From Magnetococcales bacterium (GTDB lineage: Bacteria > Pseudomonadota > Magnetococcia > Magnetococcales > JADFYX01), in the NCBI GenBank assembly GCA_002753565.1, contig PEAM01000013.1, forward strand, positions 1 through 64,000: a DNA stretch of 64,000 nucleotides, written 5' to 3'. Numbering within the stretch: position 1 is the stretch's first letter; every line of letters starts with the position of its first letter. A program made the translations under genes and the position numbers. Shown here piece by piece: positions 13,322 through 21,231 of the stretch. Under the pieces are notes generated by a model, which was not told where the DNA came from, made no database searches, and was given only the letters and a program-made list of their open reading frames with translations.

Positions 13322-13347
13322 TATCTTTGGGAGTGGAGAAAAACGTC

Positions 13348-13881
13348 ATGGAAATTCATGGAACTCGGTTTGGAGTCCTCGAATTCAACGAGAAAGAGAT
13401 CATCGAAATCAGTGATGGACTGCTTGGTTTCCCTTTGAGTCACCGATTTCTCTTGTTTCCTTACGGGCAAGACTCCTCTTTCTTCTGGTTACAATCGGTT
13501 GATGAGGTGGATATCGCTTTCATCGTCGTCAACCCCTTCGATTTCTTCTCCGACTTGGAGTTTTCCATCCAAGATGCCGATGGTGAAACACTGGGGTTGG
13601 AGCGGGAAGAGGATGTGGAGGTCTTTACGCTGGTTACCATCCCAGAAGGGCGTCCCGAAGAGATGCGAACCAATTTGGCCGGACCGGTTGTGGTCAACAC
13701 CGTCAACCGTCAGGGCAAACAGATTCTTTTAAAAGAGTTTTCTCCCAGACAGCCTCTGATTCCCAACGGGATGCGGGCAAAGTATCTGAGAGAAACGATT
13801 GATAAAATTGGGCAAAAGGGGACGCGGCGGCGTCACCAACAGGAGAAAAAGCGCCCCGTTAAATTGGCCGCTGCAAGTTAA
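13348..13881 (+). CDS. fliW: Flagellar assembly factor FliW (copy 1)
   Basis: FliW binds flagellin in the cytoplasm and, where CsrA is present, antagonises CsrA repression of flagellin translation. Family landmarks are the LLGFPLSHRFLLFPY strand region, the WLQS-x-D segment, AFIVVNPFDFF, and the TLVTIP-x-G motif. The open frame also extends to a TTG at 13327, but the ATG at 13348 has GGAGTGGAG nine bases upstream and aligns with copy 2, so it was chosen (177 residues). It has a basic 30-residue tail beyond the usual end of the family (KKRPVKL), absent from copy 2. No csrA is in the window. Confidence 0.93.
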   Translation: MEIHGTRFGVLEFNEKEIIEISDGLLGFPLSHRFLLFPYGQDSSFFWLQSVDEVDIAFIVVNPFDFFSDLEFSIQDADGETLGLEREEDVEVFTLVTIPEGRPEEMRTNLAGPVVVNTVNRQGKQILLKEFSPRQPLIPNGMRAKYLRETIDKIGQKGTRRRHQQEKKRPVKLAAAS

Positions 13882-13922: not shown

Positions 13923-16001
13923 ATGCCACTCTATATTAATACCAATGTTGCTTCCCTAAATGCCCAAAGAAACCTGTTGGGTTCCACCGGTGATCTGAAC
14001 AAGGTCTTTGCCCGGTTGTCTTCCGGACTGCGTATCAACACCGCAGGAGACGATGCGGCCGGATTGGCCATCAGCAACCGGATGACTGCCCAGGTTCGGG
14101 GTCTTACCCAGGCCATGCGTAATGCCAACGATGGCATCTCGGTCTCTCAGGTAGCAGAGGGGGCCCTGGCTGAACACTCCAACATGCTGCAACGGATCAA
14201 CGAGTTGTCCGTTCAGGCTGCCAACGGTACCAACAGCGAGTCCGACCGGGAAAACCTCCAACAAGAGGTGGTTCAACTTCTTGCTGAGATTGAGCGGGTT
14301 GCCCAACAGACCGAATTCAACAACTGGCCTGTTCTCAACGGTGAGACCGATCCTTTAGTGTTCCAGATCGGTGCCCGTGAGAGCCAGACGGTTAAAGTTG
14401 AGTTGGCCGATGCAACCGCCAACACCTTGTTGGCTCAGCCCAAGTTGTCTGACCCCAACAATAAAGAGAGCATCTTCAATCCCAAGATCAAAGGGTTGAC
14501 CATTACAGCACCCCAGAGTCAGTTGGCCGGTTCCAAACTGTTCAGCTCCAAAGCGGGTAAGTTGATCAATGTGGTCGCCAACGCCAAAGAGTCGACCACC
14601 ATGATGGGCACATCTCTGTCCAAGAATGTTGCCTCAAACATGTTCAAAGTGATTGAGAACAAAGATCCCAGCACCCTGGCAACCGCCCTGGAGGCCAAAG
14701 TTGCCACCAAGTCTCCGCTGGTGACTGTTTTATCCGGCTTTGAAGGCAACCCGGTTGCTCCAACCGTAGACGAACTGTCCGACGGTATCATGGATTCGGT
14801 CATGACCGGCAATCCGGCTGCAGCCCAGGTGAAGACCGATACCAAAGCGGTTATCGATGCCGGTATCGCCAGTGGTCACAGCGCAGCAACCATGTCGACC
14901 AATATTCAGGCGGTTACCGATACCGATATCAGTGCAACAGAAGCCGATATGCTGGCGGCCTCTGCTCTGGCCATGTACGGTCGGACGGCCGATGGTGCGA
15001 CCGAGATTACCGGTGGCGGCACACTGGACAACGCCATTGCCGCAGCCATGGCTGTTGAGACCATCCTGTCGGCGGATGCCACGGTGGATTCGGATCAGGC
15101 ACGGATTATTGCGGCAGCCACCTACGCAACCAATAAGAGTTATGCCACATCAGAGAATGTACCGAGCAGCTATCAGTCCCTGGCCGGAGACACCACCGGC
15201 TTGATTGCGACCACAACAGGTATTGGCGATGTGGTGGATAATGCCATCAACGGCAGCACCACGGTACCGCCTCGGGTAGATGATGTGCCGGTTGGCAACA
15301 TTATCGATGTGATCAAAGCGTTTGATGCAGCCATCAGCCAGAACAAGGATATCGAGTCGGTTGCCACCGCCGCGATGACAGCGGACAAGAGTGGCAAATT
15401 GAGCCTGGCTGATGCCAAGATCATTGCCGCCGCCGGTCTGGCTGCGGCTCTGCCCAGTGGTACTGTTGCCAAGGCGGCCACGGCTGCCAAGGAGATGTCT
15501 CTGGTGCTTGCCGGGCGGGATGCCGCCGCCGCCGCTGCCTCTCAGCCAAGTGCCGGTGAGCAGATTACGGTACCGGATTGGCTGTTGGATACCTCCGGTT
15601 CCAACTCCTTTCCGCCGGTGCCATTGATTGACATTACAGGGGCAACGATCCCAACCGACCCGACCCTCCCATTCAATCCGCCCAGCACGGATGGCAGCAA
15701 CCCGGCTTTGGGTGGACAGGATGCCGCTGCTCGGATGATCTCCGTGGTGATGGCGGCTCTGGACCGGGTCTCCAGCACACGGGCCGAGCTGGGTGCTGTT
15801 GAAAACCGTTTTGAGGCCAACATCAAAAACCTGGCCAACGTGGTTGAGAATGTCTCAGCAGCCCGCTCCCGGATCTTGGATGCGGATATTGCCGAAGAGA
15901 CAGCCAATCTGACCAAGTTGGCCATCATGCAACAGGCCGGTACCGCCATTCTGGCACAGGCCAACCAGCAACCCCAGCTTGCCTTGCAGCTGTTAGGCTA
16001 A
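13923..16001 (+). CDS. Flagellin with a large central insert (flagellin 1)
   Basis: A 692-residue flagellin, filament subunit exported by the flagellar type III system. Residues 1 to about 145 are the conserved D0/D1 N-terminus ([53 protein letters not shown]). Residues about 605-692 are the C-terminal D1/D0 ([20 protein letters not shown] to LALQLLG). The roughly 450 residues between them form an enlarged surface-exposed region, Ala-rich and with recurring motifs such as [20 protein letters not shown] and [10 protein letters not shown], implying internal helical repeats. It follows fliW by 41 bp with AAAAGAGGATTGAGTC before the ATG. Confidence 0.93.
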
Positions 16002-16166: not shown

Positions 16167-16184
16167 TTGGCACGAGCAATGCAT
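16167..16184 (+). promoter_or_regulatory. Sigma-54 promoter of the fliW2/flagellin 2 operon
   Basis: TTGGCACGAGCAATGCAT has the -24 TGGCACG and -12 TGC elements at the canonical spacing, about 195 bp before fliW copy 2. The rest of the 378-bp gap between flagellin 1 and fliW2 shows the flagellin 1 hairpin and AT-rich sequence (16200-16300) that may hold activator sites; no gene is seen there. Confidence 0.82.
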
Positions 16185-16379: not shown

Positions 16380-16871
16380 ATGGAGGTTCAAGATACGCGA
16401 TTTGGCACGTTAAAGGTAAATGAAGAGGAGATCATCACTCTGAATGGTGGGCTGATGGGGTTTCCCATGAGCAGCCGCTACATCATGTTTCCCTATTCAG
16501 AGGACTCTTCCTTCTTTTGGTTGCAGTCCATTGATGAGCCGGAAATCGCTTTCATTGTCATTAATCCTTTTGATTTCTTTAATGACCTGGTTTTTGAAGT
16601 AGCTGACAGTGATGCCGCAAGCATCGGTTTGGAACGAGGTGAAGATGTGGAGATCTTCACACTGGTTACCATCCCCGACGGAACACCTGAGGAGATGAGA
16701 ACCAACTTGGCCGGTCCGGTTGTCGTGAATGTAAATAATCGGCAAGGACGTCAAATTTTGGTTAAAGAGTACTCGCCCAGGCAGGCTCTTATTCCGGCTG
16801 AAATGAAAAATACTGTCTTACGGCACAATGGCAAAGGGCATTCCGAAAAGCCGCAGCAGGTTGCGGTATAA
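16380..16871 (+). CDS. fliW: Flagellar assembly factor FliW (copy 2)
   Basis: A 163-residue FliW paralogue very similar to copy 1 through the core (DSSFFWLQSxDE, NPFDFF, TLVTIPxGxPEEMRTNLAGP), but lacking the basic tail of copy 1. A GTG two codons upstream (16374) is in frame; the ATG at 16380 was preferred because GGAGAG lies eight bases before it and it aligns with copy 1. It heads its own sigma-54-driven set with the short flagellin-like protein and flagellin 2, suggesting each flagellin has a dedicated FliW or that the two arose by duplication of a fliW-flagellin unit. Confidence 0.92.
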   Translation: MEVQDTRFGTLKVNEEEIITLNGGLMGFPMSSRYIMFPYSEDSSFFWLQSIDEPEIAFIVINPFDFFNDLVFEVADSDAASIGLERGEDVEIFTLVTIPDGTPEEMRTNLAGPVVVNVNNRQGRQILVKEYSPRQALIPAEMKNTVLRHNGKGHSEKPQQVAV

Positions 16872-16907
16872 ATCGGATTGGACAGAACAGGATAAAAGGG
16901 GATTTTT

Positions 16908-17123
16908 ATGCCACTACTAATTGATAGAGATGAGATGGCAGCAAGAGGGCGCTCTCTTACCGGTTCCGCTCATAAGGGGAGCTTGGCTCGGATTGTCTCC
17001 GGCATGAAGGTCTCTACCTCTCGCTCGGATTCAGTCGGATTGGACCGTTTCATGCGGGATATGTCAGCTCTGTTTTGCCAGGATCAGGTTGAACCATTTG
17101 GGGCCAAAAGTTCGGCTCTGTAA
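16908..17123 (+). CDS. Small stand-alone flagellin N-terminus-like protein
   Basis: A 71-residue protein with a strong ribosome site (AAAAGGGGA, seven bases before the ATG). It begins MPLLID where the flagellins begin MPLYIN, and its residues 26-55 align without gaps to the flagellin D0/D1 helix: LARIVSGMKVSTSRSDSVGL against [20 protein letters not shown] in flagellin 2 (about one third identity, most other positions conservative). It stops after about 65 residues of the flagellin frame and has no C-terminal D0 helix. It may be a short decoy, export or regulatory peptide, or a decayed flagellin copy. The intact start, ribosome site and compact frame argue mildly for function. Confidence 0.65.
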   Translation: MPLLIDRDEMAARGRSLTGSAHKGSLARIVSGMKVSTSRSDSVGLDRFMRDMSALFCQDQVEPFGAKSSAL

Positions 17124-17182
17124 ACAAGATTAGCCAGTCTTTATGATCTGGCACCGTTGCTCCCAAAGAAGGGGAATAAGTC

Positions 17183-18010
17183 ATGCCATTGTATATTAAC
17201 ACCAATATTGCTTCCTTAAATGCTCAGCGGAACTTGCTGAATTCATCTAATGAGCTGGGAAAGACCTTTGCCCGGTTGTCTTCAGGACTTCGGGTCAACT
17301 CGGCCAAGGATGATGCCGCCGGTCTCTCCATCTCTACCCGGATGACCTCTCAGATCAAGGGTCTGAACATGGCGATCCGCAATGCCAATGATGGCGTCTC
17401 CATGGCTCAGGTTGCCGAAGGGGCTTTGTCAGAAACCACCAACGCTCTGCAGCGTATGCGTGAGTTGGCTGTTCAGGCTGCTAACGGTGCCTTGACCGCC
17501 AGTGATCGGGCCGATCTGCAGCAGGAGGTGACCCAGTTGATCTCTGAAGTTCAGCGGATCTCCACCCAGACCGAGTTTAACACCATGCCGATGTTGAACG
17601 GCAGTTTCACCGGGATGAGAATCCAGGTGGGTGCCGAGTCGGGACAGACCATCTCTTTTGCTATCGATCCCATGAGCACCTCTGCTCTGGGCATCACCAA
17701 CGTCAGCATCGGTTCCAATGCCGGCCCGTTGGGAGCAGCCTCTGCCATCAGTACTCTGGATGCGGCTCTGTCGAGTGTGTCCGACCTGCGGGCAACCTTG
17801 GGTGCGGTGCAAAACCGTTTTGAAGCGGTCATTGCCAACCTCTCCAACGTGGTAGAAAACATGTCTGCGGCCCGTTCAAGGATTTTGGACGCCGATATTG
17901 CTGAAGAGACCGCTGCCTTGACTCGGAACGCCATTTTGCAGCAGGCCGGCACAGCGGTATTGGCACAGGCCAATCAGCAGCCTCAGTTGGCTTTGCAGCT
18001 GCTGGGTTAA
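17183..18010 (+). CDS. Flagellin (flagellin 2, compact)
   Basis: A 275-residue flagellin containing essentially only D0/D1: N-terminal [53 protein letters not shown] and Q-x-E-FN, then a minimal hinge, and a C-terminus [20 protein letters not shown] ending LALQLLG. It lacks the insert of flagellin 1 and is about 60% shorter, so the two should differ in the exposed outer surface they give the filament. It lies 59 bp after the small flagellin-like protein, ribosome site AGAAGGGGAA. Confidence 0.96.
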
Positions 18011-18082: not shown

Positions 18083-18127
18083 GAGTATCATTGGCAGCAG
18101 GTTGGGTAACAACGGATGGAGGTTGCC

Positions 18128-18409
18128 ATGACCGCAATCGCTGCGGGAAAAATCGTCGCTGGACAGGACTCCGGGGGGATCTATGGTGACACGGAGTTGC
18201 TGGAAAGCTTGGTGGATGAAGTCAATGGTACGCTGGGAAGGTTGGCGACATTGGGGCTTCAAGTGAATCAAGTCGGGGAGATAAGCGTAGGAGACGGGTT
18301 GAATGCAGAGGTTGAATCCTTGATTCATCTGCTTCCTCAAGAGCAGATGGAGGATATCGCGCGACGTGTTCGATCCATCGAAAGCTTACTCCTCCATGCC
18401 GCCCAGTAG
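18128..18409 (+). CDS. Small protein in the flaG position (function unknown)
   Basis: A 93-residue protein between flagellin 2 and fliD, where many bacteria carry flaG. It does not show the FlaG C-terminal motif, so I do not name it. After a short Gly/Ala-rich start it is predicted largely helical (ELLESLVDEVNGTLGRLATL; EVESLIHLLPQEQMEDIARR; VRSIESLLLH). The frame also opens at an ATG at 18116, but GGAGG sits six bases before the ATG at 18128, which decides the start. Context suggests a filament-length, chaperone or regulatory role (inference). Confidence 0.75.
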   Translation: MTAIAAGKIVAGQDSGGIYGDTELLESLVDEVNGTLGRLATLGLQVNQVGEISVGDGLNAEVESLIHLLPQEQMEDIARRVRSIESLLLHAAQ

Positions 18410-20289: not shown

Positions 20290-20382
20290 TATTTTTCTTG
20301 GGTAGTGGTCCGGTTTGGTTCACCACTTAATCTTGTCAATGTGTTGGTAGATATGGACGATAACGGAGAGAAGGGTAATAAG

Positions 20383-20760
20383 ATGAACGTGCAATCATTT
20401 GAATCACCGGCTGCAGAGCAGCCCATACCGTCGGGCCTGGATGTATTGATTCAACTCTATGAAGGGTGTATCAACTTTCTGGAAGAGGCCTCCGAAGCGT
20501 GTGAGGAGGGGCGTGTGGAAGCGTTCAATGATCGTCTGACACGAGGTCGGCGCATTATCGAGCATTTTCAGCAAACCCTGGATTTTGAGATGGGCGGGCC
20601 GGTTCCCAATCAGCTCAACGATCTCTACACCTTCATGCTGGATGCTCTCACCCAGGCTGACCTGACCCATGAGACCAAATATATTCAGCAGGTGATAGAC
20701 CAGTTGTCTATTTTGCTGGACGGGTGGCGCGGTGCACAACCTGCGGTCCTCGAATCCTGA
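20383..20760 (+). CDS. fliS: FliS-family flagellin chaperone (copy 1)
   Basis: A 125-residue four-helix-bundle protein of the FliS family. It carries the hallmark LIQLYEGCINFLEEA helix, TLDFEMGGPVPNQLNDLYTFM and the closing LLDGWR helix. FliS holds flagellin monomers in the cytoplasm and prevents premature polymerisation. The frame opens further upstream at 20305, but GGAGAGAAGGG before the ATG at 20383 sets the start. It is quite divergent from copy 2 (about one third identity by eye), so the two probably serve different clients or one is specialised. Confidence 0.82.
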   Translation: MNVQSFESPAAEQPIPSGLDVLIQLYEGCINFLEEASEACEEGRVEAFNDRLTRGRRIIEHFQQTLDFEMGGPVPNQLNDLYTFMLDALTQADLTHETKYIQQVIDQLSILLDGWRGAQPAVLES

Positions 20761-20784: not shown

Positions 20785-21231
20785 ATGTCCTACGGCCTTC
20801 GTAAATATCGGACTTCCCAAGCGAACACCGCTTCGCGTGAAGATCTCCTGATCCTTCTCTATGAAGGGGCCATCCGTTTCCTGGAGCGATCCATTAAAGA
20901 GATGGAGGCAAAACGACTCAGTGAGCATAAGATGTATCTGCGCCGGGGTTTGGCGATTGTGGCAGAGTTGCAGAGTACCCTGGATTTTGAAAAGGGTGGG
21001 GATCTCTCCATGAAACTGTTCGACCTCTATGGCTTTATGTTGGAGCGCTTGACCCAGGCCAACATGAAGCAGGATATGGATCAGATTCGGATTGTGATCA
21101 AAAATTTGGAGACGCTTCTGGAAGGGTGGCGAGATGCTGTGCGCCAGGTGAAAGAGACGGCGGGGCTGCATACCACAGCACCGACCACACCTCCCCCTCC
21201 CGGTAGACGCCTCGCTGGTGGAGCCTATTAG
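20785..21231 (+). CDS. fliS: FliS-family flagellin chaperone (copy 2)
   Basis: A 148-residue FliS with the fuller set of family motifs: N-terminal YRTSQANTASREDLLILLYEGAIRFLERS (residues 8-36, where the tyrosine helps gate flagellin binding), STLDFEKGGDLSMKLFDLYGFM and LETLLEGWRDA. The last 20 residues are Pro/Thr-rich and outside the fold. It is the more canonical of the two copies. It lies 24 bp after copy 1, and its stop codon abuts the ATG of the next gene. Confidence 0.9.
   Translation: MSYGLRKYRTSQANTASREDLLILLYEGAIRFLERSIKEMEAKRLSEHKMYLRRGLAIVAELQSTLDFEKGGDLSMKLFDLYGFMLERLTQANMKQDMDQIRIVIKNLETLLEGWRDAVRQVKETAGLHTTAPTTPPPPGRRLAGGAY

Follow-up and report, generated by a model that had tools for sequence, protein, structure and literature searches.

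Between the second fliW gene (fliW2) and the second flagellin gene of a Magnetococcales flagellar cluster lies a 71-codon open reading frame (ORF) whose product starts like a flagellin and ends without the C-terminal half of one. Is this ORF a gene, and if so, what would a stand-alone flagellin N-terminus do beside fliW2? The ORF was analyzed in the window, which is the whole 64,000-nucleotide stretch of DNA under study, and in related genomes.

Arrangement of the flagellar cluster

The ORF occupies positions 16908–17123 of the forward strand and encodes, from an ATG start codon, the sequence MPLLIDRDEMAARGRSLTGSAHKGSLARIVSGMKVSTSRSDSVGLDRFMRDMSALFCQDQVEPFGAKSSAL. Its own Shine-Dalgarno (SD) sequence, AAAGGGG, is read at approximately 16894–16900 on the same strand, and a GGGG-type SD is observed at the same place upstream of the ORF in all four species that carry it. 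The ORF is separated from fliW2 by 36 nt and from flagellin 2 by 59 nt. The fliW2 gene (about 16380–16871, forward strand; start chosen from a conserved MEVQ) matches the Pfam family PF02623 with an E-value of 9e-34, and flagellin 2 (17183–18010, forward strand; 275 aa) matches PF00669 and PF00700 with E-values of 1.5e-44 and 1.1e-23, respectively. A sigma-54-like promoter site, TGGCACGAGCAATGCA (TGGCACG-N4-ATGCA), is located upstream of fliW2 at 16168–16183 on the forward strand and is kept in 4/4 species. The placement of a 71-residue ORF with its own SD between fliW2 and flagellin 2 was found as a sequence-only reading of the window, which had also put it in a sigma-54 operon, had described it.

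The cluster is ordered flgK, flgL, fliW1, flagellin 1, the sigma-54-like site, fliW2, the 71-codon ORF, flagellin 2, a 97-aa ORF, fliD, fliS and fliS. The fliW, flagellin and fliS genes were named through Pfam, and flgK, flgL and fliD were named through our own reading of the sequences. The two fliW paralogs each adjoin their own flagellin. The fliW1 gene (13327–13881, forward strand; PF02623, E-value 1.2e-34) precedes flagellin 1 (13923–16001, forward strand), which matches PF00669 and PF00700, contains 692 aa here and 712 in the relatives, and has normal D0/D1 ends separated by a large insertion. The fliS genes form a tandem pair (20305–20760 and 20785–21231, forward strand). The 97-aa ORF between flagellin 2 and fliD (18116–18409, forward strand) is conserved in the genus with dN/dS values of 0.2–0.3 and has no Pfam or NCBIfam match; its location fits that of the “putative flaG” of the magnetotactic cocci MC-1 and MO-1 (PMC7175107). 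The compact cluster of MC-1 and MO-1 consists of flgKL, fliW, one fliC, putative flaG, fliD and two fliS genes (PMC7175107), to which the present cluster adds a second fliW/flagellin module and the 71-codon ORF. The genome encodes two FliW proteins, the usual number in most of Magnetococcales, the order to which the magnetotactic cocci belong, and one 77-aa CsrA with a C-terminal extension, so that FliW and CsrA, as required by the FliW-CsrA-flagellin homeostasis system, are both present.

Similarity to the flagellin N-terminus

The similarity between the ORF product and flagellin is beyond chance, though modest. When a Magnetococcales flagellin-N profile was compared with the 403 window ORFs of 40–150 aa, the 71-codon ORF ranked at the top with 15.6 bits. 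The 97-aa ORF ranked second with 4.4 bits, which is chance level. Conversely, a profile built from four orthologs scored flagellins at up to 23.0 bits, a value reached by none of 200 column shuffles (≤8.5 bits). In hhalign, residues 1–47 were aligned with flagellin residues 1–50, start to start, with a probability of 92% and an E-value of 5.9e-7. Whole-genome profile searches of the order led to flagellins: 23 of the 26 non-self loci that were fetched contain a flagellin motif and a 24th (L080) is a flagellin by eye; of the remaining two, one is a likely radical-SAM protein and the other a frame interrupted by stops. This likeness is visible to custom profiles only, which find the N-terminal homology. 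The ORF product is not recognized by PF00669, has no PF00700 C-terminal region, matches nothing in Pfam (up to an E-value of 10) or NCBIfam, and obtains only a chance-level match in PHROGs. In a sequence search of the whole PDB, flagellins were not significant (E-value 0.7) and ranked below a chance match to ribosomal uS11. Judged from local similarity combined with position, the ORF very likely shares descent with the neighboring flagellin.

Flagellin-like residues are observed at the start and in the middle of the protein. Codons 1–5 (16908–16922, forward strand) encode an MPL-x-I start, equivalent to the MPLYI of flagellins, and its MPL and I residues are invariant in 4/4 orthologs. Codons 25–46 (16980–17045, forward strand) encode the core LARIVSGMKV...DSVGL, which aligns with flagellins, especially flagellin 2 of the operon, in a register within three residues. 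The core is the best-kept part of the product and, in our own alignment, lies over approximately residues 26–47 of FliC, an export signal (PMC6337784). In contrast, residues 6–24, at the place of the flagellin ND0 helix, are variable, with many proline and glycine residues in the relatives; the D1 hairpin and the C-terminal domain are absent; and the last 24 residues (48–71) form a new conserved sequence that is unrelated to flagellin. The sequence-only reading had extended the likeness over residues 26–55, which is slightly too long because residues 48–71 are not detectably flagellin-like; its alignment holds for residues 1–5 and approximately 25–46. Its description of a stand-alone flagellin N-terminus that lacks the C-terminal half was borne out, as the tail scores ≤0.4 bits against flagellin C-termini. 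An internally deleted mini-flagellin with a C-terminal D0 as its tail, suggested by eye, was rejected on this score, which 94 of 200 shuffles equaled or exceeded.

Codons 43–65 (17034–17102, forward strand), which have no flagellin counterpart, encode a predicted amphipathic helix (residues 43–57) followed by a QDxVxxFG motif that is invariant in 4/4 orthologs. The amphipathic tendency of the helix gives shuffle p values of 0.03–0.09 across the four orthologs, and an AlphaFold monomer of the ORF product (pLDDT 53) contains this helix only, at low confidence. Given the retention of residues 1–5 and 25–46, the loss of ND0 and the new tail, the protein appears to be the spoke and export-signal part of a flagellin, devoid of the filament-forming parts and supplied with a tail of its own.

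Conservation and selection in one genus

Three further species in this GTDB genus, all represented by Magnetococcales MAGs, encode full-length orthologs of 69–71 aa with intact frames and 48–49% identity. The gene is thus present in 4/4 genus members that possess the locus, in each case as the next gene after fliW2 and immediately ahead of flagellin 2; a fifth, incomplete genome of the genus is without any fliW locus. A single-sequence genome scan returned no orthologs, and the three relatives were recovered by a profile scan. The alignment of the four orthologs contains 24 invariant residues and one 6-nt in-frame gap. Pairwise dN/dS values are 0.26–0.49 for the ORF versus 0.04–0.17 for the neighboring fliW and flagellin genes, two independent pairs give Fisher p values of 0.0009 (G003-G000) and 0.07 (G002-G004), and the frame is intact despite large synonymous divergence among the four species. 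The ORF very probably represents a translated gene on which purifying selection acts, less strongly than on its neighbors.

Outside the genus, no comparable ORF was observed between fliW and flagellin at 29 other fliW loci examined in the order, each of which is followed by a flagellin. No further orthologs were found in the rest of the order, in a GTDB contig scan, in 398 sampled genomes of the phylum or in viral contigs. Short-frame profile matches in other families were rejected, as they were contig-edge flagellins (G006) or fell by chance within a likely radical-SAM gene (G017). The gene appears to have arisen in, and to be so far confined to, one Magnetococcales genus.

This restriction to a single genus, the dN/dS values above those of the neighbors and the degenerate ND0 helix would suit a duplicated flagellin that is decaying and has no function. 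The sequence-only reading had named missing conservation and a frame interrupted in sister strains as the signs of such a copy; instead, neither a broken frame nor a loss of protein-level constraint was found. As the frame is intact in four species and under purifying selection, the ORF is very probably not a decaying flagellin copy, and its new conserved tail and its retained SD and start codon point in the same direction. The decay explanation is largely refuted and very improbable. Equally hard to credit, and if anything more so, is co-assembly with flagellin as a filament, cap or length-control component. The flagellin-like start and spoke region would allow such a role, and magnetotactic cocci have flagella of complex composition, with 14 flagellins in MO-1 (PMC7175107). 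However, the ND0 helix sequence is replaced by a variable, proline- and glycine-rich one, and the CD0 partner is absent, the tail not being CD0-like; these losses disfavor a filament subunit. The earlier suggestion of filament-length control gained no support, and the degenerate ND0 helix speaks against assembly.

Possible function beside FliW2

The reading that we favor, with a probability of only about 0.38, is that the ORF product is a genus-specific FliW2 ligand derived from the flagellin N-terminus. The gene would encode a small protein derived from, or remodeled on, the first ∼47 flagellin residues, in which the filament-forming ND0 helix and the entire C-terminal half are gone and a short, conserved amphipathic tail has been added. 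This protein would be produced with FliW2 and flagellin 2 from one sigma-54-type transcript and would bind FliW2 in the manner of the flagellin N-terminus. FliW2 would be drawn off CsrA or flagellin, and flagellin translation would be lowered or timed. The protein may afterwards leave through the flagellar export gate and free FliW2, since the segment that it has preserved best corresponds to the one acting as export signal in FliC.

A FliW2 ligand is favored on the basis of published mapping and the extended CsrA of this genome. In B. subtilis, the flagellin fragments N60 and N72 are soluble and suffice for FliW binding (PMC6070490). In C. jejuni, FliW requires the flagellin N-terminus, FliS requires the C-terminal D0 of flagellin, and CsrA with a C-terminal extension is the type said to accompany FliW (PMC5466977). 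The decoy for FliW or FliS proposed from the sequence therefore survives in its FliW half, which in principle best fits the mapping (PMC6070490, PMC5466977), whereas a FliS decoy is disfavored because FliS needs the C-terminal D0 (PMC5466977) and the ORF tail is not D0. The ORF product resembles the N60 and N72 constructs in length and flagellin-N nature and adjoins fliW, and it may in effect be a natural counterpart of N72. The constructs are, however, artificial truncations of a true flagellin and are identical to it at residues 11–34 and 50–72, where FliW confers protection in HDX (PMC6070490), whereas the ORF product has diverged there. This footprint overlaps largely unkept stretches (residues 6–24 variable and 48–71 different), which argues against a FliW2 ligand, as do the 29 other fliW/flagellin junctions of the order that manage without the gene. 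An AlphaFold model of FliW2 fused in frame to the ORF product (pLDDT 35) left FliW itself unfolded and is thus uninformative on a FliW2 contact. More doubtful than FliW2 binding as such is the fuller proposal that the protein is a free-standing natural flagellin-N mimic, that is, a dedicated FliW ligand clearable by export that gives the FliW-CsrA switch a second input besides flagellin.

Since the FliW-protected stretches are mostly diverged and the export segment is kept, with a core closer to the export signal than to the region protected by FliW, the main rival is a small flagellar export substrate, either a secreted factor or a FlgM-like timing signal, which we regard as unlikely. Residues 25–46 would guide such a substrate to the gate, and the amphipathic tail would be the working part that binds a partner, either ahead of export or following it. 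FlgM is an exported anti-sigma factor; the ORF product is comparable by analogy only, as a small and possibly exported flagellar regulator, and no sequence similarity to FlgM was detected in it. The best-conserved flagellin-like stretch coincides with FliC residues 26–47, reported to direct export, but these residues alone were inefficient in one study (PMC6337784), and retention of residues 25–46 need not imply export because flagellin N-termini are in any case most conserved there. The tail (residues 43–65) is conserved, predicted to be helical and amphipathic, and distinct from the flagellin C-terminus, as a working part would be, but no known secreted factor matches the ORF product. C. jejuni FlaC, a secreted, non-filament flagellin, is likewise related to flagellin and has been suggested to work outside the filament; FlaC, however, has the D0/D1 domains of a flagellin and binds FliS but not FliW (PMC5466977), in contrast to a 71-aa protein without a C-terminal half.

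The position directly upstream of flagellin 2 also raises the improbable alternative of a translated leader, in which ribosomes on the ORF would alter a hairpin and the SD of flagellin 2, possibly with an export-sensing arrest peptide (SecM/VemP-like, for the flagellar gate). Between the ORF stop codon and the flagellin 2 start codon (17124–17182), a weak hairpin is observed at 17130–17155 on the forward strand, with a CCAGY/RCUGG stem in the relatives and a few compensatory changes; four sequences are a small number for judging covariation. A 21-nt sequence over the flagellin 2 SD, CTCCCAAAGAAGGGGAATAAG (17159–17179, forward strand), is identical in the four species and could form a short TCCC/GGGA stem; it occurs at no second place in the loci fetched. 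Together, the hairpin and CTCCCAAAGAAGGGGAATAAG are a possible CsrA-type or SD-masking element. Folding energies are nonetheless ordinary (z −0.2 to −1.0), little better than those of shuffles, and synonymous sites within the ORF vary freely. Conserved residues lie near the C-terminus of the ORF product, but the last six residues are unconserved, unlike the usual arrest motifs, and no known arrest motif was seen in the ORF.

To our knowledge, no conserved stand-alone gene of this sort has been described, and none that is flagellin-N-like was found in the open-access literature. FliW is known to sense flagellin itself. If the ORF product is a FliW2 ligand, the sensing part of flagellin would be separable from the building part through a gene of its own beside fliW, and cells with two FliW/flagellin pairs could set each pair separately. 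The 71-residue protein would also be a ready tool for mapping the FliW site. The gene may serve naturally to tune flagellin production.
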